Below, one piece after another: positions 27,843 to 56,036 of a stretch of 64,000 nt of DNA. Each line of letters starts with the position of its first letter. Position 1 is the stretch's first letter. The stretch comes from Aurantimicrobium minutum (GTDB lineage Bacteria > Actinomycetota > Actinomycetes > Actinomycetales > Microbacteriaceae): positions 992,001 through 1,056,000 of the forward strand of contig NZ_AP017457.1 of the NCBI RefSeq assembly GCF_002355535.1, written 5' to 3'. The translations under genes and the position numbers were made by a program. The notes under the pieces are model-generated. The model saw only the letters and a list, made by a program, of their open reading frames with translations. It did no database searches and was not told the DNA's origin.

Positions 27843-29771
27843 ATGTACGCATTTCCCGAACTTACTGCTGCTGCCAGAGCACAACTGCAGGGCCTCATTG
27901 GCACGAGTACTCGTGGTGCCCAAGATCTCCTCGATCGTTTTGATCGCTGGGGCCACGACCTCATCGAAGCGTTTGCTCAGCTCTACCCGATCGAAACAGC
28001 ACTGCCTCAAATGATCGAGGTGATGGCCGTAGCTCACCTTCACCGTGATGAAGAGCTCCAGCAACGCGACCGTGAGCGTGTTCTAGAACAGGACTGGTTT
28101 CAGTCTGAAAAAACTATTGGCTATGTTGCCTACGCTGACCTCTTCGCAAAAAACCTCAAAGGAATCAACAAACGCATTCCCTATCTCAAAGATTTGGGGA
28201 TCACCTATCTCCACCTGCTACCCATTTTGAAGCCCCGGCCAGGCGCTAACGACGGGGGCTATGCCGTCATGGACTATCGCGCTCTTCGTGAAGACCTCGG
28301 CTCCATGAAGGAATTGCGCTCAACAGCAGACAAGCTGCATGACTCAGGAATCTCGCTCACGCTCGATCTCGTTCTCAACCACGTTGCGCAGGAACACGTG
28401 TGGGCTGAAAAAGCTCGAGCAGGTGATGCCACGTATCGCGAGTACTTCTATGTTTATCCCGACCGCACCATCCCTGATGAGTTTGAAAAAACTCTCCTGG
28501 AAGTTTTTCCTGACTTTGCTCCCGGGAACTTCACCTGGGATGACAAGCTCCAAGGCTGGGTGTGGACGACGTTTAACTCCTATCAATGGGATGTGAACTG
28601 GTCGAACCCTGCCGTGTTCTGCGAATACGCAGACATCATTGCCAACCTGGCCAATCACGGAGTTGACTGCATCCGCTTAGATGCAATTGCATTCATGTGG
28701 AAGCGGATGGGAACAATCTGTCAGGGTGAACCAGAGGTTCACGTAATCACCCAAGCACTGCGCGCCTTTGCTCGCATACTGTGTCCCTCGATGATTTTCA
28801 AAGCTGAAGCGATTGTGGGGCCTGCCCAGGTGGGCGCCTACTTTGGTGAGGGAAAGCACGCAGGAAAAGTCTCCGATCTGGCGTATCACAACAGTTTGAT
28901 GGTGCAGATTTGGTCGGCGATTGCCGCCAAGGACACCTCCCTCATGGTGCACACCATGTCACGGTTTAGTGGACTACCGAACACGACCGCATGGGGTGTG
29001 TATCTGCGTTGCCACGACGATATTGGGTGGGCAATCGATGACACGGATGCCCACGAAGTGGGCCTCAACGGTCACGATCACCGCCTTTTCCTTGCTGAAT
29101 ATTTTGAAGGAAACTTCTTTGGATCTTTGGCAACTGGGCAACCCTTCATGCCAGACCCGGTCAGTGGGGAACGTCGCACCTCTGGCACCGGCGCCAGCCT
29201 GGCAGGCATTGAAAAAGCCATCAAGCTCAAAGACGAGATGCTCCTTAACCAAGCCATTGATCGATATCTTTGTGCCTACACAATGGTGTTTGGTTTTGCC
29301 GGTATCCCCCTGCTCTATATGGGTGATGAGATTGGCCTGCTGAACGACCACAGTTATCTCAAAGACGAAACCAAGAAGGAAGATAACCGCTGGATTCACC
29401 GCCCCAAGATGAACTGGCGCGTAGCGGATGCGGCCGCTGCCGGCGAACTCGATGACAAACCTGCAGGGCGAATTTACAACCGCATTAAGCACGTCATTGA
29501 TGTTCGAAAGTCTCTTCCTTCGCTTCATGCCAGCGTTGCCACGACAGTACGAGCAGGTTCGGGTAAAGGAGTGGTCATTTTTGACCGCAAGCACCCTGCC
29601 GGAGATCTCATCGAGGTTTACAACCTCTCAGAATCTTCACGATGGCTCGGTTCACAAGAACTTGGTGGAATGACTGGGAAAGTGACAGACCACCTCACCG
29701 GGCACACCTTCGAGATAGGTAACGGTGTTCCGTTAGCACCCTATGAAGTGCGCTGGTTTAGCCAGGCGTAG
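27843..29771 (+). CDS. Amylosucrase (GH13 family)
   Basis: A 642-residue GH13 enzyme with the amylosucrase-type N-terminal helical domain (about 1-90) before the TIM barrel. Signatures are LGITYLHLLPILKPRPG, LVLNHVA, CIRLDAIAFMWKRMG (nucleophile Asp), FKAEAIVG (acid/base Glu) and CHDDIGWAI (stabilising Asp). It splits sucrose and builds alpha-1,4-glucan, releasing fructose. The PfkB sugar kinase at 51781 could use such fructose. GGAG lies eight bases before ATG. Sucrose phosphorylase or trehalose synthase are less likely because of the N-terminal domain and the KPRPGANDGGYAV segment. Confidence 0.85.
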   Translation: MYAFPELTAAARAQLQGLIGTSTRGAQDLLDRFDRWGHDLIEAFAQLYPIETALPQMIEVMAVAHLHRDEELQQRDRERVLEQDWFQSEKTIGYVAYADLFAKNLKGINKRIPYLKDLGITYLHLLPILKPRPGANDGGYAVMDYRALREDLGSMKELRSTADKLHDSGISLTLDLVLNHVAQEHVWAEKARAGDATYREYFYVYPDRTIPDEFEKTLLEVFPDFAPGNFTWDDKLQGWVWTTFNSYQWDVNWSNPAVFCEYADIIANLANHGVDCIRLDAIAFMWKRMGTICQGEPEVHVITQALRAFARILCPSMIFKAEAIVGPAQVGAYFGEGKHAGKVSDLAYHNSLMVQIWSAIAAKDTSLMVHTMSRFSGLPNTTAWGVYLRCHDDIGWAIDDTDAHEVGLNGHDHRLFLAEYFEGNFFGSLATGQPFMPDPVSGERRTSGTGASLAGIEKAIKLKDEMLLNQAIDRYLCAYTMVFGFAGIPLLYMGDEIGLLNDHSYLKDETKKEDNRWIHRPKMNWRVADAAAAGELDDKPAGRIYNRIKHVIDVRKSLPSLHASVATTVRAGSGKGVVIFDRKHPAGDLIEVYNLSESSRWLGSQELGGMTGKVTDHLTGHTFEIGNGVPLAPYEVRWFSQA

Positions 29772-29807
29772 TTGTTCACAGGCCTATCATGCTGGATTCC
29801 TCGACGC

Positions 29808-29813
29808 TATAAT
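29808..29813 (+). promoter_or_regulatory. Consensus -10 box for the toxin-antitoxin operon
   Basis: A perfect TATAAT, seven bases, then ATG at 29821. No Shine-Dalgarno lies between, and no good -35 is visible. Confidence 0.6.
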
Positions 29814-29820
29814 TCTGTAC

Positions 29821-30105
29821 ATGACAACTCTTTCCCTCGCTGAAGCACGAGCTAACCTCTCCAAGCTTGTAGAGGCAGCTGTCACCACTCAAGAAGTATT
29901 TGAGATTACTCGAAACGGAAATCGTGACGCAGTTCTCATGAGCGCTGACGAATATGACTCCCTCATCGAGACCATCGACATTCTGGGTGATGAAGAAACG
30001 ATGAGTCAACTTCGCGTGGCCTTGGCCCAGCAAAAAGCAGGCTTGAGCGTTGCTATGGATAAAGAAACACTCCTTGCGAGCGTTGCTGCCAGAATGCCCG
30101 AATGA
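29821..30105 (+). CDS. relB: Antitoxin, Phd/YefM (RelB-like)
   Basis: A 94-residue Phd/YefM-type antitoxin: TLSLAEARANLSKLVEAA at the N-terminus (DNA-binding part), then FEITRNGNRDAVLMSADEYDSL, a hallmark of the family. The C-terminal 30 residues would wrap the toxin. It usually represses its own operon. The start at 29821 is set by the consensus -10 seven bases before it. Its last codons overlap the toxin start (ATGA), a standard translational coupling. Confidence 0.88.
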   Translation: MTTLSLAEARANLSKLVEAAVTTQEVFEITRNGNRDAVLMSADEYDSLIETIDILGDEETMSQLRVALAQQKAGLSVAMDKETLLASVAARMPE

Positions 30106-30377
30106 ATCAGCCTTATACCGTCAAAATTCTTCCTGCCGCACGCACTGCAATTGAGGTTCAATTACCTCAAAAAGTTGCTTCCGCTGTCATCGAGTTCATC
30201 TACGGCCCGCTTGCCCAAAACCCCCACCGACTTGGTAAACAGCTGCGCGGAGACCTGGCAGGAATGATGGTTGCCAGGCGCGGAGAATACCGAGTGATTT
30301 ATGAAATCTTCGATCATGAAATCATGATCGAGATTGTGCTGGTGTCACATCGACGCACAGCGTATATGCGTCGATAA
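30102..30377 (+). CDS. relE: Toxin, RelE/ParE family
   Basis: A 91-residue RelE-fold protein: YTVKILPAARTAIEVQLPQKV, then PHRLGKQLRGDLAGMMVARRG and EYRVIYEIFDHE, ending VSHRRTAYMRR. The conserved basic residues and the C-terminal His-Arg-Arg-x-x-Tyr pattern are those of ribosome-dependent mRNA interferases. It directly follows the antitoxin. Both genes are intact, so the module is probably functional. Confidence 0.88.
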   Translation: MNQPYTVKILPAARTAIEVQLPQKVASAVIEFIYGPLAQNPHRLGKQLRGDLAGMMVARRGEYRVIYEIFDHEIMIEIVLVSHRRTAYMRR

Positions 30378-30399: not shown

Positions 30400-31524
30400 T
30401 CAACGTTTGCTGAGTGAGTTTTTTCTTCTCAGGAAAAGGGCTCCGCCGAATAAGGAAATTATTGCGACGACAGAGAGAACAGCACCTGCCTCAGAGGAGC
30501 TACCAGTTTTTGCAAGTTCCTGCGGAGTCGGGGTAGGTGTAGGAGTTGGTTCGACCAAGTTGATGACACTCACAGTGTCATTCAATAGCGACGTGGCATA
30601 GGCGCTACGACCATTCGGGGTTACTGCAATCCCGGTCATACCGGATGCAACGTTGATTGTGGAGATCACTGCCTTGGTCGCAGTGTCAATGACTTGAACC
30701 TGACCTGTATCAAAACAGGCAACGTAGAGCTTTGCTCCGTCAGGGGTGATTGCCATGCCCATAGGACCGCTTGCCACACTGATTGTGTCAGTTACTGCAT
30801 TATTCGCAGTATTTACAACGCTGACAGTGTTAGGGCCCTTGTTCACCACATAAAGCTTCGAAGCGTCTGGACTAAAGGCCATGGAGCGGGACTCAGCACC
30901 GATTGAAATGGTGTTTGCGAGAGTGTTGTTTGATGTAGTAAACACCTGTAATGAACTCGCGGCGTAATTGGTGACATAAAGCTTGGCACCATCAGGCGAA
31001 ACAGCAACCATCAGCGGGCTCGTCGCAGTTGAAACGGTATTCGTAACTGTGTTATCGCTGGCACGAATAACGGAATAGGTGTTGCTGATCACATTGGCAA
31101 CATAAATTTTGCTGGAATCTGGTGAAACGGTAACACCAAGTGGAGCAGAGCCAACAGTTACGTTTGCAACCACGGTGAGGTCAGAGAGCCTAATTACGGC
31201 AACTGCGTCACCGGTGTTCTTGGAAACATAGGCATATGTTCCCAGCGGATTGATGGCAATGTCTGTAGGGCTGCCGCTGACTGTGATGGAAGTTTGCACA
31301 GTATTTGTTGCTGTGTCTATGACATCCACACGACTGGCATTAGAGATTGCCACGAGAGCTTTCGAGCCATCAGGTGTTATTGCAACTGACCAAGGCTCAT
31401 CGCCGACGGCAATCGTGGCAACGACGTTATCAATAGTCGCGTGTGCTGGTGTTGTAACAAAGAAAACCAGGAAAAGAGCAAGCAACGAGGTGAGGCCAGC
31501 TCGGAATGTGGACTTAGTCAGCAA
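30400..31524 (-). CDS. Cell-wall-anchored YVTN beta-propeller protein
   Basis: A 374-residue secreted protein. Residues 1-29 are a signal peptide (LTSLLALFLVFFVTTPAHA), followed by about seven 42-residue YVTN-type beta-propeller blades with repeated PDGxKLYV and NTVSVI motifs. Then come a Thr-Pro linker (PTPTPTPQE) and a sortase signal LAKTG, hydrophobic segment and RRKNSLSKR tail. LAxTG is the form recognised by class E sortases in actinobacteria. No sortase is in the window. It starts at TTG with GGAG five bases before it. The role is unknown; ligand binding or adhesion is plausible. Confidence 0.8.
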   Translation of the reverse strand: MLTKSTFRAGLTSLLALFLVFFVTTPAHATIDNVVATIAVGDEPWSVAITPDGSKALVAISNASRVDVIDTATNTVQTSITVSGSPTDIAINPLGTYAYVSKNTGDAVAVIRLSDLTVVANVTVGSAPLGVTVSPDSSKIYVANVISNTYSVIRASDNTVTNTVSTATSPLMVAVSPDGAKLYVTNYAASSLQVFTTSNNTLANTISIGAESRSMAFSPDASKLYVVNKGPNTVSVVNTANNAVTDTISVASGPMGMAITPDGAKLYVACFDTGQVQVIDTATKAVISTINVASGMTGIAVTPNGRSAYATSLLNDTVSVINLVEPTPTPTPTPQELAKTGSSSEAGAVLSVVAIISLFGGALFLRRKNSLSKR

Positions 31525-31614
31525 CGTTGCTCCAGTGTTGGGTGAATAAAGCCAGGTTTCCGGCGATGTGTTCAGCCTATCTTCAGGCGTGGTTTTTGTG
31601 TTTGATTTTCACGG

Positions 31615-31688
31615 TACCCCCAGTGGGACTCGAACCCACACTGGATCGATTTTAAGTCGATTGCCTCTGCCGATTGGGCTATGGGGGC
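31615..31688 (-). tRNA. tRNA-Leu(TAA), short variable loop
   Basis: A 74-base cloverleaf: acceptor stem GCCCCCA/TGGGGGT, D-arm of 17 bases with GG in the loop, perfect five-bp anticodon stem ATCGA/TCGAT around CTTAAAA (anticodon TAA), five-base variable loop CCAGT, T-arm GTGGG-TTCGAGT-CCCAC, and discriminator A. CCA is not encoded. The anticodon and A73 indicate leucine, but the long variable arm normal for bacterial tRNA-Leu is missing. Confidence 0.88.
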
Positions 31689-31710
31689 GTACCTCTCAAG
31701 GCTAGCAAAG

Positions 31711-31742
31711 CACAAGGGAGGCCGCGGACGGCCTCCCTTGTG
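31711..31742 (-). terminator. Terminator of the ndh transcript
   Basis: A 13-bp perfect stem (CACAAGGGAGGCC / GGCCTCCCTTGTG) with a six-base loop, ten bases beyond the ndh stop. A short T-rich stretch (CTTTG) follows on the minus strand. Confidence 0.82.
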
Positions 31743-31751
31743 TGAGAAGTT

Positions 31752-33164
31752 TTACTTCTTGACTGCGGGCTTCTTTGCAGGAGCCTTCTTTGCAGCTGGC
31801 TTTGCGGCAACCTTCTTAGTAGCAGGCTTTGCTGCTGCCTTAGCTGGAGCTGCAGGGCGTGAAGCAAACTCTTCGAAAGCGGCACGAGGTGTCTCACGAG
31901 CTTCGAGAGAGACGATGTCACGTCCGAGCCAGAAGTTGTTCCACCATCCCCAGATGACGCGGAACTTGCGCTCGAAGGATGGCATAGCCAGACCGTGGTA
32001 TCCACGGTGTGCAAGCCACGCGATGTATCCCTTGAGGGCGATCTTGCCGGACTGGAATACACCAATGTTCAGACCAAGGCCTGCAACAGCACCCAGGTTC
32101 TTGTGGAAGTAGTCAGTGGGTCCTTCGCCACGTAGCACGGCAACAACGTTGCGAGCCATGAGCTTGCCCTGGCGAACAGCGTGCTGAGCGTTAGGTACAC
32201 AGTAGCCACCTACGCCGCCACCGGAAAGGTCAGGACATGCGGTTGCGTCTCCAGCACCCCAGGCGCCTTCAATAACTCCGTTGTCGCCTTCAACGCGCAG
32301 GTCGGCGCGCACGCGCAGACGTCCACGCTCGTCGAGGGGGAAGTCGGTTGCACGCAGCATGGGGTTAGCCATGACACCTGCGGTCCAGATGATGAGGTCG
32401 GATTCGAAGCTTTCACCGGTGGAGAGCTGGATTACACCGTTCTCTGCTGACTGAAGCTGAGTGTCTAGGTGAACCTGAGCACCGCGGGTTGCGAGGTTGT
32501 TCAGAACCCACTTGCTGGTCTCGAGCGAAACTTCAGGCATGATGCGACCCATAGCCTCAATGAGGTGGAAGTGGGTGTCATCGAAGGTGAGCTCTGGGTA
32601 GTCCTTGATGAGGTCGGATGCGAGTGAGCGAAGCTCAGCGAAAACCTCTATACCTGCGAATCCACCACCAACAACGGTGACGGTGAGCAGGCGGTCTCGC
32701 TCAGGACCTTCAGGAAGCTGTGCTGCCTTGTCGAAGTTAGAGAGCAGGCGGTCGCGAATAGCAACAGCCTCTTCGATGGTCTTCAGACCAATAGCGTTAT
32801 CAGCGATGCCGGGGATGGGGAAGGTACGAGAGACGGCACCAGCGGTGAAAATAACCTGGTCGTACTTCTCGTCGAACTGCTTACCTGCGTTAGGAACGAT
32901 GGTGGCAGTTTTCTTGGCGTGGTTGATGCCTGCTACCTTGCCGGAAATGATGCGGGTCTTACGTAGGTGAGAGCGGTGACCAACAACTGCGTGGCGAGGC
33001 TCGATGGATCCGGCAGCAACTTCGGGAAGGAAGGGCTGATAAGTCATGTAGGGCAGTGGGTCAACAATGGTGACTTCTGCTTCTCCGTTACGGAGGAGTT
33101 TTTCGAGCTTCCACGCGGTATAGAAACCAGCGTAACCAGCACCGACAATCAGAATCTTGGGCAC
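31752..33164 (-). CDS. ndh: Type II NADH:quinone oxidoreductase with lysine-rich tail
   Basis: A 470-residue NDH-2 flavoprotein with the FAD motif KILIVGAGYAGFYTAWKLEK at the N-terminus, the NADH motif VTVVGGGFAGIEVFAEL, and WGAGDATACPDLSGGG. It oxidises NADH and reduces menaquinone at the membrane without pumping protons. The C-terminal ~35 residues are a Lys/Ala/Pro repeat (AAKPATKK, AAKPAAKK, APAKKPAVKK) like histone H1 tails, not part of the core fold. The GTG start at 33164 was chosen because a longer ORF would overlap the preceding gene; GGAG is about ten bases upstream. Confidence 0.9.
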   Translation of the reverse strand: MPKILIVGAGYAGFYTAWKLEKLLRNGEAEVTIVDPLPYMTYQPFLPEVAAGSIEPRHAVVGHRSHLRKTRIISGKVAGINHAKKTATIVPNAGKQFDEKYDQVIFTAGAVSRTFPIPGIADNAIGLKTIEEAVAIRDRLLSNFDKAAQLPEGPERDRLLTVTVVGGGFAGIEVFAELRSLASDLIKDYPELTFDDTHFHLIEAMGRIMPEVSLETSKWVLNNLATRGAQVHLDTQLQSAENGVIQLSTGESFESDLIIWTAGVMANPMLRATDFPLDERGRLRVRADLRVEGDNGVIEGAWGAGDATACPDLSGGGVGGYCVPNAQHAVRQGKLMARNVVAVLRGEGPTDYFHKNLGAVAGLGLNIGVFQSGKIALKGYIAWLAHRGYHGLAMPSFERKFRVIWGWWNNFWLGRDIVSLEARETPRAAFEEFASRPAAPAKAAAKPATKKVAAKPAAKKAPAKKPAVKK

Positions 33165-33180
33165 AGTAATACGTCTCCAG

Positions 33181-34467
33181 CTAGACATTGGGGGGTTGGG
33201 GCGTCTCGTCTGTTTCGTGACGGGAATGATCACGGGGAACAACAGGACGAAGTCTTCGAGTAACTCCGATGTACCCGATAACTACAATCGTACCGAATCC
33301 AGCGAAAAACAGTAACGGAACACCCACGGTGGTCAGCTGATAGAGCGTGGGAAGACCCGCAATATTGCCACTGTCGAAGGGCAAGGGAGCTGGGGTTGCT
33401 GTCGAGGTATCCCATGGGATGGGAGTAGAGGTGGAGCTTCCGCGCCGATACAACTTGATCCATTCGGTGAGATCACCCAGTGGGTTTGCTTTCACCGGTG
33501 CGACCTCTGCTGTCACGGCAGCGTAGGCGTTGATCTTTCCGTAGCCGTAAATAGGGCTAGGAACTTCTCCCACAGGTGTAGCAGTAGCGATAACGCGCTG
33601 AATCACGTTGTTGGCATCGAGTTCAGGATGTGATGCTCGCACTAATGCCACCAGTCCAGAGACGATGGGGGCTGCACCACTGGAGCCAGACCACTTCATG
33701 TATTGGCCGCCAGGAGCAACACCAACAAGTGCCTCACTGGGGGCAGAAACCGCGATGGTGATTCCTTGACTGGAGGCGTCGTAGCTGGCTTCTCCGTTGA
33801 CATCCAAACCGGCAACGGTCAAGACGCCAGGGATTGTTGCGGGTGCTCCCACTTCGTTAGTTCCAGAGCCGCGGTTTCCCGCAGCAGCAACAATCACGAC
33901 ATCATGCTCGAAGGCATAGAGGAATGCCTCATCCCAGCTCTTTGGCCATTCCAGCGAGTTTCTGGTCAGGGACATGTTGATTACTTTGGCGCCCTGATCC
34001 ACCGACCATTTGATGGCATTGGCTATCTGTTCATCTGAGGGGATAGCCGTGTCTACACCGAACGCCACTGAAGCTGAAAGAAGCTGCGCTGCCGGAGCAG
34101 TTCCTAAAATTCCGTTATTGCCTCCGGTGCCACGGCCTGCCAGGACAGAAGCCACCAAAGTTCCGTGATCAGGCGATGCGCCCACCGGGGTGCGACCATC
34201 AGGGGACCCAACGCCGGAAAAATCTGCTCCCCCGACCACAGCAGCATTGATATCGGGCGCATACCCAATACCTGAGTCAATGACCGACACCAGGACGCCC
34301 TCACCGCGGGTGATATCCCAGGCTTGATAGAAGTTGTAGTCCGAAAGCCAATACTCCATGTCACGGATGTAGTCAGCCCGGGCAGGCACAGCCTGCAACA
34401 CCGTCATCATGGTGACGGCAAAAGTAGCAAGAAGAATTAGTCCTCGTCGTAGACGACGCACTGGCAC
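33181..34467 (-). CDS. Secreted/membrane-anchored subtilase, mycosin-like (S8)
   Basis: A 428-residue protein: signal peptide (about 1-31), subtilisin domain with catalytic Asp in VSVIDSGIG, His in SPDHGTLVASVLAG and Ser in SGSSGAAPIVSGLVAL, a Pro/Ser/Thr linker, and a C-terminal transmembrane helix (about 375-400) with a basic cytoplasmic tail. This architecture is that of MycP proteases of type VII secretion. No other ESX component is in the window. The GTG start at 34467 lies inside the DUF501 gene (31-base overlap); GTG at 34461 is an alternative. Confidence 0.85.
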   Translation of the reverse strand: MPVRRLRRGLILLATFAVTMMTVLQAVPARADYIRDMEYWLSDYNFYQAWDITRGEGVLVSVIDSGIGYAPDINAAVVGGADFSGVGSPDGRTPVGASPDHGTLVASVLAGRGTGGNNGILGTAPAAQLLSASVAFGVDTAIPSDEQIANAIKWSVDQGAKVINMSLTRNSLEWPKSWDEAFLYAFEHDVVIVAAAGNRGSGTNEVGAPATIPGVLTVAGLDVNGEASYDASSQGITIAVSAPSEALVGVAPGGQYMKWSGSSGAAPIVSGLVALVRASHPELDANNVIQRVIATATPVGEVPSPIYGYGKINAYAAVTAEVAPVKANPLGDLTEWIKLYRRGSSTSTPIPWDTSTATPAPLPFDSGNIAGLPTLYQLTTVGVPLLFFAGFGTIVVIGYIGVTRRLRPVVPRDHSRHETDETPQPPNV

Positions 34468-42779: not shown

Positions 42780-43940
42780 ATGGCCCGGGTAAGTATGAAG
42801 ACAATCTTCAGATCAGAACGCTATGCCGCCATCTCTCTCGCTGGCGCTGCTGCACTGGGCTTATTTCTAGCCAATTCTGTGGCAGGCCCCGGGCTCATTG
42901 AACTCAGTCACTCTTACGTTGGCTTCCCTGCCATTGGGCTTGAGCTGAGTATCGCTCACTGGATTACTGATGCTTTGTTGGCAGTGTTCTTTTTCATCAT
43001 TGCTGTTGAACTTCGTCATGAATTGACCGTGGGCGAACTGAGCTCATTCAAAAAAGCTCTCGCTCCAGGAATTGCGGCTCTCGGCGGTGTGATTGTTCCA
43101 GCGCTCGTTTATTTATCCATCGCTGGAGCAGATTATGCCCGAGGCTGGCCTATCCCCACCGCGACAGATATTGCTTTTGCCCTAGGGCTCATTGCACTTG
43201 TGGGTCGAGGTCTCCCCGGTCGATTGCGAGTCTTTCTACTTGCCTTAGCCGTCATCGATGATCTCATCGCGATCTTGATCATTGCCGTGTTCTTTACGGC
43301 CAGCATTGACTTCATTGCGTTAGGCATGGCTGTCATTGCCGTGTACTTGTTCCGGTTCATTAGTTGCCAAGGGCGAATGAATTCACAGCTTCAAGCAACT
43401 TTGTTGGTCGTTGTTGCGTTGTTTGCGTGGTATTTCACCTACCTTTCCGGCGTGCATGCCACCATCGCTGGAGTTGCCCTAGGTCTGGTTCTTCAACCTC
43501 GCTTGGCTGGTCAAGCTGCTCACGCCTTGCAGCCAACAACAAACGCAGTGATCCTGCCCCTCTTCGCCTTCGTCTCCGCGTTGGTTGTTATTCCTGATCT
43601 TGCACCCAGTGAGCTCAGTCCTGCCTTTTGGGGCATCGCTGTTGGTTTGCCATTGGGGAAGATTATTGGAATTACTCTCGCCGGCAGCATCGTGGCCGCA
43701 ATCATTCACCGCGGTGAAGCAACCGAAACCATCGTCAAAGGGTGGGACTTATTCACGATCTCTGCCGTGGCCGGTATTGGTTTCACCGTCTCGCTGCTGA
43801 TGAATGAGTTGGCTTTTGAAGGAAACTCGCTTATTCGAGACGAGGGTGTGCTGGGTGTGCTCATCGGCTCAGCCATCGCCATCGTGATCGGTGGAAGCTT
43901 GGTTATCTGGCGCTCTCGTCACTACCGGAAGAAGAACTAG
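42780..43940 (+). CDS. nhaA: Na+/H+ antiporter NhaA
   Basis: A 386-residue antiporter with about 12 helices. The ion-binding pair of aspartates is in VIDDLIAILII, preceded by PTATDIAFALG (helix IV crossing) and followed by SGVHATIAGVALGL. It exports sodium in exchange for protons. Its 3' end overlaps the 3' end of mfd by 38 bases on the opposite strand, so neither has an intergenic terminator. Confidence 0.93.
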   Translation: MARVSMKTIFRSERYAAISLAGAAALGLFLANSVAGPGLIELSHSYVGFPAIGLELSIAHWITDALLAVFFFIIAVELRHELTVGELSSFKKALAPGIAALGGVIVPALVYLSIAGADYARGWPIPTATDIAFALGLIALVGRGLPGRLRVFLLALAVIDDLIAILIIAVFFTASIDFIALGMAVIAVYLFRFISCQGRMNSQLQATLLVVVALFAWYFTYLSGVHATIAGVALGLVLQPRLAGQAAHALQPTTNAVILPLFAFVSALVVIPDLAPSELSPAFWGIAVGLPLGKIIGITLAGSIVAAIIHRGEATETIVKGWDLFTISAVAGIGFTVSLLMNELAFEGNSLIRDEGVLGVLIGSAIAIVIGGSLVIWRSRHYRKKN

Positions 43941-46900
43941 CATCTGACTTCGCTGGAACGGGGAAGATAGCTTCGAGCAGATTCCCTGTCCAGGCAATCA
44001 AATCAACATCCTCAGGTAGAGGAACAGTCATCACCCGAGCAGCGGGAACATATTTTGCTCCTGGATACATCCTCGCCAATCTCACCTGCAGCGAGTCCGG
44101 AAGATCAACCGGGGTAATGCGCAGGTTGGAACCCATCACGACAACCTCACTCAAGCTGGACTGGTGAGCTCGGCGACGAAGCCTGGAAATAGCTATCAGG
44201 TTGTGAACTTGAGCTGGTGGTTCACCGTAGCGATCGGAGAGTTCTTCGAAGACCTGATCAATCTGTTCTTCACGTGAGAGGGGACCACTGGCAACCGACA
44301 GCTTTTGATACGCCTCAAGACGCAAACGCTCTGAATTGACATAATCATCAGGAATGCGGGCATCAACCGGCAGTTCCAGGCGAAGCTCAGTCTGGCCTTC
44401 TGCGACGTCGCCGCGGAAGGCAGAGACCGCTTCGCCAATCATGCGCAGGTAGAGGTCAAAGCCCACCCCGGCAATATGACCTGACTGTTCTCCGCCGAGA
44501 AGGTTACCGGCACCGCGAATTTCGAGGTCTTTGAGCGCAATCTGAATACCAGAGCCCAGTTCGTTATTGGCTGCGAGCGCGTTTAACCGGTCGTGGGCTG
44601 TTTCACTCAGGGGCGTTGTTTCGTCATAGAACAGATAGGCATAGGCACGTTCTCGGCCACGGCCAACACGACCACGCAACTGATGCAATTGGCTCAGGCC
44701 ATATTTATCTGCTCGATCAACAATGAGCGTGTTGGCATTGGCGATATCTAGACCGGTCTCAATGATGGTGGTGGAGACCAAGACATCGAATTTGCGTTCC
44801 CAGAAGTCGATAATGACTTGTTCGAGTTGGTGTTCGGAGAGTTGACCGTGTGCAACACCCACGCGCGCTTCAGGAACAAGTTCTGCGATCTGCGCGGCAA
44901 CCCGGTTGATGCTCGAGACACGGTTGTGCACAAAGAAGACTTGGCCTTCGCGCAAGATTTCTCGGCGGATTGCAGCCGCTGCTTGCTTCTCGGAGTAAGG
45001 GCCCACGAAGGTGAGAATAGGGTGACGATCCTCAGGTGGCGTGGCTAACGTCGACATTTCACGAATACCGGTCACAGCCATTTCTAGTGTGCGTGGGATG
45101 GGGGTCGCACTCATGGCAAGAATGTCAACGTTGGTCTTGAGTTTCTTCAGTGCATCCTTGTGCTCCACACCAAAGCGTTGCTCTTCGTCAATGATGACGA
45201 GGCCAAGGTCTTTGAAGGTGACGCCCTGCGCTAAGAGGCGGTGGGTTCCGATGACCACGTCCACGGTGCCATCGGCCATGCCAGCCAAGGTTTCCTTGGC
45301 TTCTTTATCTGTTTGGAAACGACTGAGTGCACGTAAGTGAACCGGGAATCCGGCAAAGCGTTCTTGGAAGGTCTCGAAGTGTTGCTTCACCAGCAGCGTG
45401 GTGGGCACCAAGATGGCAACTTGCTTGCCATCTTGGACAGCCTTGAACGCTGCGCGAACCGCGATTTCTGTTTTTCCGAATCCCACATCACCTGAGATAA
45501 GACGGTCCATGGGGATGGGCCGCTCCATATCTGCTTTGACTTCGTCGATGGTCGTGAGCTGATCAACGGTCTCGACATAGGGAAAGGCTTCTTCGAGTTC
45601 GCGCTGCCAAGGCGTATCGGGGCTGAAGGCAAAACCTTTGCTGGCCATGCGAGCGCTGTAGAGCTTGACGAGTTCGACCGCGATGTCGCGGACAGCTTTG
45701 CGTGCTTTGTTCTTGGCTTGACCCCAGTCGCTGCCACCCATCTTGGATAGCGCGGGAGACTCTCCGCCAACATAGCGAGTGAGTTGATCAAGCTGATCAG
45801 TAGGGACATACAGTTTGTCGCCGGGATAGCCACGTTTGCTGGGTGCGTACTCAATAACTAAGTACTCACGCATGGTCTTCACGGCGTTGCGTCCACCGGA
45901 GGAAACTTCACGCTGAACAAGCTCAAGGAACTTACCAATACCGTGAGTTTCGTGAACGACAATGTCGCCAGCTTCGAGTTTGAGCGGGTCAACCACGTTC
46001 TTGCGTCTGCTGGCGAGTTTGCGTGGTGCTCGGGCGTCATAGCTGGCAGCGCGGCCATAAAACTCAGATTCCGAAATAACGGCAAGCTTGGCTTCCTCGA
46101 GCTCAAACCCTGCCTCCACAGATGCTTGAACCAGGTATGCCACCGCAGGTTCGAGCTCGCCAGGAAGCTGCTCAACCATGCGGGCAGCAAGATTCCGTTC
46201 AGCCAGAACTTGCCCAGCACGCTCAACTAGGCCGTGACCTTCGGCCGCCACAATGACGGTCCAGTTGTTCTTGAGTAATGACTCCACGTGCTCAGCAGCA
46301 CCATCAATGTTCCCAGCAAAGCTGGGGACAGCTTTAGCGTTAATTCGTACGGTCAGAATCTCATCAAGGTCGAGCTCTTCAGGCAGCGGTTCTGACGCAT
46401 CAGGACCGTGTTGGAAGGCACTAAATGTCCACCATGGACCACCCGTGTAGTGTTCACGCAGTTGCGTGATGGTGAGGAAATCGCCGGCCGAAAGATCAAT
46501 AGGAGCTTGTGCGCCAGCACTTGCTGCATTCCATGCCGCATCGAGGAATTCACGGTTTGTCTCGGTGAGGTTGATGGCACGAGTCGCGATGCGTTCTGGT
46601 GAGAGCAACGCGATAGCGGAACCCTTGGGCAGATAGTTGGTCATTGGAACAAGGTTGTCCACCAGTGCTGGAGTGAGAGACTCCATTCCCTCCACCGCGA
46701 TACCCTCGGCAATCTTGGAGAGCATGTGGGAAATACCGGGGAACTCGTGTTCCATCTCCCGGGCACGTTGACGCACGGGTTCTGTCAGGAGAAGTTCACG
46801 GCTAGGCGGAAGCGCGACGGTATCCAGATCACCGTCGAGGGATCTTTGGTCAGCGACCGAGAAGGCCCGAATGCTGTCAATCTCATCACCGAAGAAGTCC

Positions 46901-47499
46901 ACACGAATGGGGTGGTCGGCCACCGGCGGAAAAACATCCAAGATGCCGCCGCGCACAGCAAACTCACCTCGCCGGGTGACCATATCGACACGGACATAAG
47001 CCAAGTCCACTAAGCGTGAGGCAATCTCGAGCAGATCATTTCCGCGAGAGCCCACCTTGACGATGATGGGGTCCACCTCGGCAAGATTGTCGGCAATCGG
47101 TTGCAGCACACCTCTCACGGAGGTAATCATGACCAACGGTGTCTTGCCATCCCAATCCCGCAATTGGCGAATGGCATCAAAACGTCGCCCCACAATTTCT
47201 GGGCTGGGACTCAAGCGCTCATGAGGCAGGGTTTCCCAGGCAGGGAATTCAGCCACCGTCGCGTGAGGAAGCAAACTTCCTAAAGCGGCAGAAAGCCGTT
47301 CAGATTCACGTTGAGTTGCGGTGACAGCCAAGACCACAGGCGGCTCACCTTGCTCAATGCGGGTCTCAATCAAAGAGGTCAGCAGAGGAGCATTGAGACC
47401 TTCTACGAGAGAAAAATCCGCATCTTTGTTGGCGTATTCCAGAGCCTCAGAGATATTTCGGGTACGCGAAAGGGCGCGCGAAAGCCCGTGAAATACCAT
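43903..47499 (-). CDS. mfd: Transcription-repair coupling factor
   Basis: A 1198-residue Mfd. In order: UvrB-like domains near the N-terminus (TRRGEFAVRGGILDVFP), the RNA polymerase interaction domain (KLEAGDIVVHETHGIGKFL), the RecG-like translocase (SGDVGFGKTEIAVRAAF Walker A, VIIDEEQRFG Walker B, MSATPIPRTL), and the C-terminal regulatory domain. It removes RNA polymerase stalled at lesions and recruits UvrA. The ATG at 47499 was chosen because TAAACT lies seven bases before it; a longer ORF would overlap the upstream gene. Confidence 0.96.
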   Translation of the reverse strand: MVFHGLSRALSRTRNISEALEYANKDADFSLVEGLNAPLLTSLIETRIEQGEPPVVLAVTATQRESERLSAALGSLLPHATVAEFPAWETLPHERLSPSPEIVGRRFDAIRQLRDWDGKTPLVMITSVRGVLQPIADNLAEVDPIIVKVGSRGNDLLEIASRLVDLAYVRVDMVTRRGEFAVRGGILDVFPPVADHPIRVDFFGDEIDSIRAFSVADQRSLDGDLDTVALPPSRELLLTEPVRQRAREMEHEFPGISHMLSKIAEGIAVEGMESLTPALVDNLVPMTNYLPKGSAIALLSPERIATRAINLTETNREFLDAAWNAASAGAQAPIDLSAGDFLTITQLREHYTGGPWWTFSAFQHGPDASEPLPEELDLDEILTVRINAKAVPSFAGNIDGAAEHVESLLKNNWTVIVAAEGHGLVERAGQVLAERNLAARMVEQLPGELEPAVAYLVQASVEAGFELEEAKLAVISESEFYGRAASYDARAPRKLASRRKNVVDPLKLEAGDIVVHETHGIGKFLELVQREVSSGGRNAVKTMREYLVIEYAPSKRGYPGDKLYVPTDQLDQLTRYVGGESPALSKMGGSDWGQAKNKARKAVRDIAVELVKLYSARMASKGFAFSPDTPWQRELEEAFPYVETVDQLTTIDEVKADMERPIPMDRLISGDVGFGKTEIAVRAAFKAVQDGKQVAILVPTTLLVKQHFETFQERFAGFPVHLRALSRFQTDKEAKETLAGMADGTVDVVIGTHRLLAQGVTFKDLGLVIIDEEQRFGVEHKDALKKLKTNVDILAMSATPIPRTLEMAVTGIREMSTLATPPEDRHPILTFVGPYSEKQAAAAIRREILREGQVFFVHNRVSSINRVAAQIAELVPEARVGVAHGQLSEHQLEQVIIDFWERKFDVLVSTTIIETGLDIANANTLIVDRADKYGLSQLHQLRGRVGRGRERAYAYLFYDETTPLSETAHDRLNALAANNELGSGIQIALKDLEIRGAGNLLGGEQSGHIAGVGFDLYLRMIGEAVSAFRGDVAEGQTELRLELPVDARIPDDYVNSERLRLEAYQKLSVASGPLSREEQIDQVFEELSDRYGEPPAQVHNLIAISRLRRRAHQSSLSEVVVMGSNLRITPVDLPDSLQVRLARMYPGAKYVPAARVMTVPLPEDVDLIAWTGNLLEAIFPVPAKSDASSSSGSDESAR

Positions 47500-47506
47500 G
47501 CAAGCT

Positions 47507-47512
47507 AGTTTA
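47507..47512 (-). promoter_or_regulatory. -10 box for mfd
   Basis: TAAACT, seven bases, then ATG at 47499. The hexamer lies between the upstream gene's stop codon and the mfd start. Confidence 0.5.
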
Positions 47513-47518
47513 CGCAGG

Positions 47519-48649
47519 TCACCAGATAGCTGAGATTCGTGCGAGTTGGTCCGCAGTGCATGAAGTCGTGTATGCCCCGGTTGAATAGCCAAGTTTTCCG
47601 ATCGTTGCGCAATCCGCCATGTATTCCACGGCACGCTTTGCAGCGTCTACTTGTTGCTGAGGTGTCGAACCTGCGGGGGCAGTGAATTGTGGGGCTTGAG
47701 CCAAGCTTTCATCAAGAATTCTTGAGCCGTAGGTCCACCACTGACGCGCGTGTGCTGCTTCATGAACCAACACAGAAATCCCGATTGTGTTGGCATAAAT
47801 TTCGCGTTTTGCTGGATCAAGTCGAATTTCAACCGGGGTTGAATTGGTACCACCGACCCAGGCTTCACCGCAGGCGTAATACTGAATGCATAAGTCTGGG
47901 ACCCAGGAAATATATGAATTTGGGGCCAATGCCGCTACATATGCCTCAACACTAAACGCAGCGGAAACCACTGGTGGTGGCGTTGATGGGGGCGCCGGTG
48001 CACTTGGTGCAGTTCCTCCACCGGATTCACTCAGAGTGCTTTTCGCCGCAGCATTACGAGCCGCGGCTCGGGCTGCTGCTGCCTGAGCCGCAGCTGCAGC
48101 GGCCTGCTCTGCCGCTACGCGCTCTTGCTCTGCTTGCCACGCGGCCTGTGTTGCCTGAACGGCTTGAATACCTTGGCCCAGGGCAATGACGTTATTGGCG
48201 AGGGCTTCAACATCTTTTTTATTTATCGTGATCGAGTTTTCTGCACGGTCACGCTTGAGCGTTGGAAGTAATTCTTCCCAGACATCCCTTGTGGAAAGCG
48301 ATTTCAGTTGCGTCTTCAGCTTGGCCACAGTCTTTTTATTTGCCACAAGTGTCGCTTGGGCAGTTGAGATGCTCTTTTCTAGGACCTGCCGTGCATTCTC
48401 ATCAAGAACTTTCCCACTGGAGTCATTGAGGATGGTTGTTGCATTGGAGATGGCAAGTTCCAAATCGGCAGAGCGTTCAGTGAGAGCGGTGATCTGCTCT
48501 TTGCCGGCAGAGATAACCTGCTGGGTTTGTTGCTGCGCAGAAGCACGGGTTTCAACATAAACCTGTGAACCCCAACTGGCAGTGGATCCAATCAGCACGG
48601 CACTTACTGCCAACGCGGCAATCATTCGAGTGCGGGCAGAAAAGGACAT
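47519..48649 (-). CDS. Secreted coiled-coil protein with an HEAAH zinc-peptidase-like motif
   Basis: A 376-residue protein. Residues ~7-30 form a signal peptide or anchor, ~35-130 a predicted coiled coil, ~170-200 an Ala/Gln/Glu-rich stretch, then a Pro/Ala/Ser linker. A compact C-terminal domain contains VLVHEAAHARQWWTYG and RAVEYMADCATIGKLG. HEAAH fits the HExxH zinc pattern, and the downstream EYMAD could give the third ligand, so this may be an extracytoplasmic metallopeptidase. I recognise no named family. ATG at 48649 is chosen from the -10 spacing; ATG at 48655 is the alternative. Confidence 0.65.
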   Translation of the reverse strand: MSFSARTRMIAALAVSAVLIGSTASWGSQVYVETRASAQQQTQQVISAGKEQITALTERSADLELAISNATTILNDSSGKVLDENARQVLEKSISTAQATLVANKKTVAKLKTQLKSLSTRDVWEELLPTLKRDRAENSITINKKDVEALANNVIALGQGIQAVQATQAAWQAEQERVAAEQAAAAAAQAAAARAAARNAAAKSTLSESGGGTAPSAPAPPSTPPPVVSAAFSVEAYVAALAPNSYISWVPDLCIQYYACGEAWVGGTNSTPVEIRLDPAKREIYANTIGISVLVHEAAHARQWWTYGSRILDESLAQAPQFTAPAGSTPQQQVDAAKRAVEYMADCATIGKLGYSTGAYTTSCTADQLARISAIW

Positions 48650-54614: not shown

Positions 54615-56036
54615 TTATTTGGCCTCGTCCGCAGCTTTCGCTGCGGCGGTGCCGGGACGGTTGGCTTGAACCCAGCCGTCCATATTGCGCTGTGGAGCAA
54701 CATTAATGGCGAGAGCTCCGGCTGGGACATCCTTACGGATGACCGCACCAGCGCCACTGTATGCTCCATCGCCAATACTAATTGGCGCAACGAATGTGTT
54801 GTGAGAACCAGTTCTCACGTGGGAACCCACGGTGGTGTGACTCTTGGTCACGCCGTCATAGTTCGCGAAGATCGTGCCGGCACCGATGTTACTGCCTTCA
54901 CCGATGGTGGCATCGCCAACATAAGACAGGTGGGGAACTTTGCTTCCCTTGCCAATGCGTGCGTTCTTGGTCTCCACGAAGGTGCCGATCTTGCCGTCAG
55001 CTTCGAGGTAGGTTCCTGGACGCAAATAAGAGAACGGGCCAACGGAGGCGCCGGCACCAATGACAGAAAGTGTGGCATCGGTGCGCTTCACCACAGCACC
55101 TTCACCCACTTCTGTATCCAGCAAGGTTGTGTCGGGACCTATCACTGCCCCGGTTTCCACAACAGTTGCACCAAGAAGCTGTGTTCCAGGCTTAATTTCA
55201 ACATCGGGAGCGAGCTGAACCTGGATATCAATCCAGGTGGTGGCAGGGTCTGTAATGGTCACTCCGGCTAGCTGCCAACCGCGAACAATCAAGCCGTTGA
55301 GCAATCCCGCTGCGCGCGAGAGTTGAGCGCGGTCATTGATTCCCTCAACTTTCCACGAATCCAGAATCTCGACAGCAGCCACTGTTGCACCTGCTTCACG
55401 CAGCAGGCCGATGACATCGGTGATGTATTTCTCGCCCTGCGCGTTATCGAGGGTGAGGTTACTGAGCTGTGCACGAAGTTCTGGAGCAGAGAACACATAA
55501 ATTCCCGCGTTGATTTCATTGATGGCTAGTTCTTCAGCCGAAGCATCCTTGTGCTCAACGAGTTTTTCAAGGTTGCCATCTGCCGAGCGAACTACGCGGC
55601 CATAACCGGTGGCATCTTCTAAGACGGTTGAGAGGATTGTGGCTGCGGCTTGCGCCTGACGGTGCTGGTTGATCAGCCCCTGCAACGTTTCGGCATCCAA
55701 GAGTGGAACATCACCGTTAACAACGAGAACATCACCAGCAAAACCGGAAGGCAATGCTGCTACAGCCAGTTCAACAGCTCGACCGGTTCCAGGAATTTCA
55801 TCCTGGTCAACGATGATGCTCTGAGGCAGATCAACCTCAATGACCTCAACTAAGCGGTCACGTTCGTGACGCACTACGGAAACAACGTGAGCTGCATCAA
55901 GCTGGCGTGCGGTAGCAAGAACATGGCTGACGACGGACACTCCACCAAGCTTGTGTAACAGCTTGGGAGTTGAGCTCTTCATTCGAGTTCCTTGGCCTGC
56001 CGCGAGAACAACGATTGCTAGCTGTGCGTCGGCCAA
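54615..56036 (-). CDS. glmU: Bifunctional N-acetylglucosamine-1-phosphate uridyltransferase/glucosamine-1-phosphate acetyltransferase
   Basis: A 473-residue GlmU: the uridyltransferase domain starts IVVLAAGQGTRMKSSTPKLLH, with NGDVPLLDAE, and the C-terminal half is a left-handed beta-helix with hexapeptide repeats (about 255-450) including YLRPGTYLEADGKIGTFVE and SYVGDATIGEGSNIGAGTI. It makes UDP-GlcNAc for peptidoglycan. The start is TTG with GGAG five bases before it. tRNA-Gln lies 27 bases upstream. Confidence 0.94.
   Translation of the reverse strand: MADAQLAIVVLAAGQGTRMKSSTPKLLHKLGGVSVVSHVLATARQLDAAHVVSVVRHERDRLVEVIEVDLPQSIIVDQDEIPGTGRAVELAVAALPSGFAGDVLVVNGDVPLLDAETLQGLINQHRQAQAAATILSTVLEDATGYGRVVRSADGNLEKLVEHKDASAEELAINEINAGIYVFSAPELRAQLSNLTLDNAQGEKYITDVIGLLREAGATVAAVEILDSWKVEGINDRAQLSRAAGLLNGLIVRGWQLAGVTITDPATTWIDIQVQLAPDVEIKPGTQLLGATVVETGAVIGPDTTLLDTEVGEGAVVKRTDATLSVIGAGASVGPFSYLRPGTYLEADGKIGTFVETKNARIGKGSKVPHLSYVGDATIGEGSNIGAGTIFANYDGVTKSHTTVGSHVRTGSHNTFVAPISIGDGAYSGAGAVIRKDVPAGALAINVAPQRNMDGWVQANRPGTAAAKAADEAK

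Follow-up and report, generated by a model that had tools for sequence, protein, structure and literature searches.

As a rule, bacterial leucine tRNAs belong to class II (see, for example, passages of PMC7609411). The same passages define class II by an arm formed from a variable region at least ten bases long. The window considered here, a stretch of 64,000 nucleotides from Aurantimicrobium minutum, contains a tRNA gene with a leucine anticodon and only five bases in its variable loop. Is this a leucine tRNA, and if so how can it do without the arm? The original prediction allowed two answers, a lineage-specific form of leucine tRNA or a tRNA with unusual charging. We argue that it is very probably a genuine leucine tRNA, the sole reader of UUA found in this genome, which would be charged by the ordinary LeuRS. 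Its core would have been rebuilt and the type inherited vertically. The best reading is an ordinary function in an unusual form.

The features of the gene and its surroundings are collected in Table 1. The sequence, together with ARAGORN for the anticodon and Rfam for the loop, bears out the five-base loop, the TAA anticodon and the discriminator A that had been predicted. The covariance score for the Rfam tRNA model RF00005 is 59.8 bits, against a gathering score of 29. Two other Rfam models, Plastid-ycf2 and sR42, match the plus strand and overlap the tRNA. They fall under their gathering scores and were dismissed. A TAA anticodon reads UUG through wobble as well as UUA. Since the gene encodes CC alone, the A of the CCA end would need to be added post-transcriptionally. 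Some genomes of the same genus encode the full CCA. No sigma-70-like promoter was detected in 31500-31800. The oxidoreductase on one side of the tRNA has a C-terminal tail rich in lysine, alanine and proline. Beyond the gene on the other side lie PhdYeFM_antitox and ParE_toxin genes that overlap by four bases and are likely a toxin-antitoxin pair.

Table 1. Features of the tRNA-Leu(TAA) locus, numbered by position in the window
Feature	Position	Strand	Description	Basis
tRNA-Leu(TAA) gene	31615-31688	minus	74 nt to the discriminator base	ARAGORN, Rfam, sequence
ARAGORN span, tRNA-Leu(taa)	31613-31688	minus	takes in two CCA-end bases	ARAGORN
RF00005 match	31615-31688			Rfam
Acceptor stem			GCCCCCA/TGGGGGT; first pair G1.U72	
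D-arm	31663..31679	minus	GCCC-AATCGGCAG-AGGC; loop with A14, A15, G18G19, A20a-G21 (leucine-type); stem with C12-G23, C13.A22	
Anticodon arm			ATCGA-CTTAAAA-TCGAT	
Anticodon	31652..31654	minus	TAA; codon UUA	sequence, ARAGORN
Variable loop	31640..31644	minus	CCAGT, five bases; positions 44-48, U48 facing A15	sequence, Rfam
T-arm			GTGGG-TTCGAGT-CCCAC	
Discriminator base	31615	minus	A73	sequence
Partial 3' CCA end	31613..31614	minus	CC only, G next	sequence
Pyr_redox_2 oxidoreductase gene	31752-33242	minus	flanks the tRNA	
Beta-propeller gene	30400-31524	minus	Lactonase and YNCE families; other flank of the tRNA	
Probable toxin-antitoxin genes	29743-30377	plus	PhdYeFM_antitox, ParE_toxin	
Gene we take to be mfd-like	43903-47634		used in the codon test	protein sequence
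Gene we take to be glmU-like	54615-56036		used in the codon test	protein sequence

It is worth asking whether a long arm has simply been missed. Just five bases separate the anticodon stem from the T stem, which is too few for any class II arm, so a misfold hiding a better class II alternative can be ruled out. The loop falls within the four or five bases of class I. Calling the gene a clean class I tRNA holds for this loop, but not for the D-arm. The class I tRNAs of its own genome have A21 and a C13-G22 pair (the pair is present in 24 of the 29 numbered non-leucine ones), whereas this gene has A20a-G21 and a C13.A22 mismatch. The minimum-energy fold retains the acceptor, anticodon and T stems, and its D-arm pairing departs from the cloverleaf of the covariance model. 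The folding energy has a z of -2.26, with 6 of 200 shuffles equally stable.

The genome makes the case for function. It is a single contig of 1.62 Mb that is 99.98% complete. Rfam finds 41 tRNAs in it, and ARAGORN run around these also gives 41 genes. Only one of them is a Leu(TAA), and it is the short one. A second Leu(TAA) with a long arm was sought as the original prediction had advised; none was found, and a DNA search finds no other copy of the short gene. The Leu(CAA), Leu(CAG), Leu(TAG) and Leu(GAG) of the same genome all have long arms and are 82-84 nt in length. By ARAGORN run on stretches around the Rfam hits, none of the other 40 tRNAs carries an anticodon expected to pair with UUA. 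The codon is in use, making up 75 of 1894 leucine codons in a mechanically chosen set of open reading frames. A single LeuRS frame, of 849 codons, scores above the TIGR00396 cut-off, and the remaining matches fall below it.

Whether UUA means leucine here was judged from the mfd-like and glmU-like genes of the window, each aligned with homologues from 29 loci in other genomes of the same family. Homologous codons that are themselves UUA were left out, as were sites where fewer than 15 homologous residues could be compared. Leucine accounts for 241 of 316 homologous residues across 11 UUA sites. Its share is 71-75% at UUG, CUU, CUC, CUA and CUG sites and 5-17% at the tallied isoleucine, valine, methionine and phenylalanine codons. 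It is the commonest residue at 9 of the 11 sites. At the other two, arginine and valine respectively predominate, and a third site has leucine in just 14 of 29. UUA codons occupy leucine positions as often as the other leucine codons do.

The next line of reasoning is what a LeuRS would recognize. We examined 35 distinct short Leu(TAA) genes, this one included, chosen regardless of their determinants (34 by anticodon loop and T loop, and this gene by similarity). All of the short genes could be kept when the core was numbered; 2 of the 41 tRNAs of the genome could not be numbered and were left out. Every one of the 35 has U8, A14, A15-U48, GG in the D loop, A20a-G21, C2-G71 and A73. According to passages of PMC9976931, the leucylation determinants of E. 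coli tRNALeu are A73, A15-U48, G18G19, A20a and A14, and an E. coli tRNALeu truncated so as to lack the arm is still active. Short Leu(TAA) genes keep the LeuRS determinants as defined in E. coli, by rules that may not be those of this LeuRS. The discriminator holds up more widely. In the fetched loci A73 is present in 297 of 297 tRNAs selected by the D-arm signature and in 97 of 101 other short leucine tRNAs.

The rest of the core is another matter. C12-G23 and C13.A22 are found in all 35 and A9 in 32. Five-base variable loops make up 32 of the 35 and six-base loops the other 3; 30 of the loops end in AGT. Class II leucine tRNAs (62 distinct ones, from the loci fetched by then) are different: 59 have G9, 59 have G12-C23, and 58 have G.A or A.A at 13.22. 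These counts at 9, 12-23 and 13.22 mean that a leucine elbow has been joined to a core that is neither class II nor class I.

The D-arm can also be asked how often it occurs with some other identity. The signature is present in 0 of 1803 non-leucine tRNAs and 367 of 504 leucine tRNAs, in loci that were mostly selected by this signature and were fetched before any exceptions were scanned for. A pattern for the D-arm that leaves the anticodon free was run on viral contigs, and among the matches listed, from 80 loci, 81 of 83 are leucine tRNAs and 2 are histidine. The same pattern with the spacing of a longer loop gives leucine in 114 of 114 matches (80 distinct). Two scans then looked for exceptions, with an anticodon middle base other than A in one and an A followed by a pyrimidine in the other; Phe (GAA) lies outside both. 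Their complete listings hold 15 and 4 viral stretches respectively, with 10 His, 4 Gln, 1 Asn and 4 Ile. Among the 401 tallied matches listed, no Phe (GAA) anticodon goes with a leucine-type D-arm. The D-arm of the short type is a strong marker of leucine tRNAs. The 19 viral stretches that combine it with His, Gln, Ile or Asn anticodons (L543, L544, L551 and L607-L622) are possibly cases of identity switching.

How did this genome come by the gene? Among the 18 family genomes compared, 15 have the tRNA and the mfd-like gene no more than about 38 kb apart. The two are on different contigs in two of the other three genomes and far apart in the third. All 8 genomes of the genus, this one included, share the same 74 nt; they also resemble one another upstream of the gene, but differ downstream of it. 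We argue for vertical descent here from the mfd-like linkage, the identity within the genus and the upstream flank. No tRNA array surrounds the gene, and the whole window holds one other tRNA.

The short Leu(TAA) is present in 36 of 40 genomes of the order, namely 25 of 25 in the family, taken to be Microbacteriaceae (this one included), and 11 of 15 outside it. The remaining four have the long form in one case and no pattern match in three. Two pattern searches missed three family genomes that do have the short gene, with C38. One family genome (G012) has an additional pattern match of 40 nt. Across the phylum, taken to be Actinomycetota, at least 74 of 296 genomes (52 of 199 genera) have at least one short leucine tRNA with the signature, with TAA, CAA or TAG as the anticodon. 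This is a lower bound, as the short TAA genes of G129, G215, G306 and others miss the stricter pattern. There was no match for a signature-bearing short leucine tRNA in 222 of the 296, including all nine genomes of one family (f18).

The type does not stop at the phylum. A further scan found at least 118 loci, 25 of the listed ones titled as other phyla. By title, the listed loci include Planctomycetota, Proteobacteria, Acidobacteria and Bacteroidota (to which we assign Xanthocytophaga) among others. Many of these are contigs of metagenome-assembled genomes (MAGs) and may be misbinned. The 119 matches listed have the anticodons TAA (54), TAG (38), CAA (20), CAG (5) and GAG (2); the mix of taxa and anticodons is unrepresentative, since the pattern required a leucine-like anticodon and did not include C at acceptor position 2. 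Twelve genomes behind the listed loci were looked at individually. A short match is the only one in 7 of them, for example Rhodobacter sp. KR11 and Rothia nasimurium, and in 2 it is accompanied by a match unlike leucine. A Phycisphaeraceae MAG has a match of class II length, and its own short gene has T32, outside the pattern. The last 2 have no pattern match, and their short genes also carry T32. The short type is present in some Rhodobacteraceae and Planctomycetota. DNA similar to the short tRNA-Leu(TAA) was not found in complete E. coli genomes at the sensitivity used. It occurs in 7 of 72,556 plasmid records, all from actinobacterial genera.

Phages carry it too. There are 52 phage records that match by blastn, the hosts of phages with the same type include Lactobacillus, Vibrio, Prochlorococcus and actinobacteria, and the viral matches include all six leucine anticodons. 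In Lactobacillus phage Bacchae, short genes for Leu(TAG), Leu(TAA) and Leu(CAA) sit near one another (L096, 1162-1860). A contig of an Abditibacterium MAG (L217) has leucine tRNAs with GAG, TAA, CAG and CAA in one 8-kb stretch, and ARAGORN gives each a length of 74 nt. What is surprising is how widespread the short type is, not this single gene. The original prediction of a form of leucine tRNA is supported by its determinants, the leucine sites occupied by UUA and the one LeuRS gene found, but lineage-specific is too narrow a term. The type also occurs in other families of the phylum, in many phages and, going by contig titles, in some Alphaproteobacteria and Planctomycetota.

A bolder reading of this breadth is that short leucine tRNAs make up a second kind in bacteria, set apart by a core of their own, that phages and tRNA arrays carry between phyla and that has more than once replaced a long-arm form on chromosomes. 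We put this forward as a tentative possibility. Replacement would have affected TAA in this family and the Acidimicrobiaceae, and perhaps TAG in genera such as Amycolatopsis and CAA in Micromonospora. Of the fetched loci's 101 short leucine tRNAs outside the pattern, 19 carry G12-C23 in a D stem like that of class II, and these may have lost the arm separately. This second short type, seen on viral contigs (L226, L245, L363, L373 and others) with loops such as ATTTT and GTTCT, points to more than one origin.

Other readings of the gene itself must be considered. One can imagine that another synthetase charges it, so that UUA is recoded or ambiguous. Losing the arm removes a feature held to be typical of tRNA-Leu, and a class I shape might admit other synthetases. 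However, UUA falls on leucine in homologues as often as the other leucine codons do, all 35 short Leu(TAA) retain the LeuRS determinants, and A73 is nearly invariant in the wider counts. Recoding is unsupported by the codon test. The proposal of unusual charging gains nothing from that test or from the identity elements as read in the gene sequences, and we consider it highly improbable. It is scarcely credible that the gene is decayed or misfolded and that some other tRNA reads UUA. The D-arm pairing of the free-energy fold and the incomplete CCA could be taken that way, but the gene is identical in all 8 genomes of the genus and conserved across the family, and none of the other 40 tRNAs offers an anticodon expected to pair with a codon that is in use.

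Recent acquisition from a phage or a tRNA array could be argued from the phages of several host groups that have the same type and from the tRNA arrays on genome contigs that carry it as well. Against this stand the linkage to the mfd-like gene, the upstream flank shared across the genus and the lack of an array around the tRNA. A recent phage insertion at this site is unsupported for these reasons, and we regard acquisition of this sort as very unlikely. The gene might instead be a regulatory tRNA akin to bldA of Streptomyces, its short form tuned for low supply. UUA is uncommon in this genome, and bldA does act as a UUA switch according to passages of PMC4932002. We find this very unlikely as well. 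The preferred reading remains an ordinary leucine tRNA in an unusual form.

How could such a tRNA work? LeuRS may read A73 and the tRNA elbow (A14, A15-U48, G18G19 and A20a) and ignore the variable arm. If LeuRS does not read the arm, then the arm is dispensable provided that the core is rebuilt. The rebuilding would be a shift from the class II arrangement (G9, G12-C23, G13.A22) to a short-loop form with A9, C12-G23, C13.A22 and a loop that usually ends in AGT. In the family of A. minutum the short form would have passed down vertically, as part of a wider type that spans several phyla and their phages. The structure, the single copy, the conserved determinants, UUA at leucine sites, the distribution and the linkage are observed; we infer charging by LeuRS, the contacts within the core, which way the core changed and how the type came to spread.

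The class II rule is broken by a short form kept family-wide as the one UUA reader found in a genome. Nature here provides a test of whether LeuRS can dispense with the arm, as found for E. coli. For tRNA engineering, the type supplies leucine tRNAs that are compact and have a novel core, and its carriage by phages raises the question of what they gain from it. In the open-licence PubMed Central literature, as far as its passages go, a chromosomal short bacterial Leu(UAA) does not appear as a type, and short forms get passing mentions. No short bacterial leucine tRNA is named in passages of a review of non-canonical tRNAs (PMC7609411). Passages of a global tRNA tree remark on short-arm Leu, Ser and Tyr tRNAs (PMC2474678), those of PMC11541572 name tRNALeu-2, 3 and 5 of M. 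tuberculosis as long-loop tRNAs, and those of PMC8450103 describe an armless human Leu(CAA) gene that scores as Met.

The closest comparison is with class II bacterial tRNA-Leu, which shares A73, A14, A15, GG and mostly A20a-G21, and has A15-U48 in 59 of the 62. It differs in having the long arm and mostly G9, G12-C23 and G.A or A.A, where this gene has a short loop, A9, C12-G23 and C13.A22. Animal mitochondrial tRNA-Leu(UUR) is also a leucine tRNA without a long arm. Its identity depends on A73 and A14, and the arm is likewise absent from the human one, according to passages of PMC9976931. It is organellar, however, and served by a mitochondrial LeuRS, whereas this one is bacterial, in a genome with one LeuRS gene found and four long-arm leucine tRNAs. 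The tRNALeu(TAG) of the Mycobacterium mucogenicum and M. phocaicum cluster is bacterial with a short variable loop, but as described in passages of PMC6582537 it is an extra beside a normal long-loop gene, and here the short gene is the sole Leu(TAA). The leucine tRNAs of Lactobacillus phage Bacchae, Vibrio phage phiKT1024 and cyanophage P-RSM6 match it in D-arm type and have short loops, although the hosts lie outside the phylum and Bacchae has three short leucine genes.
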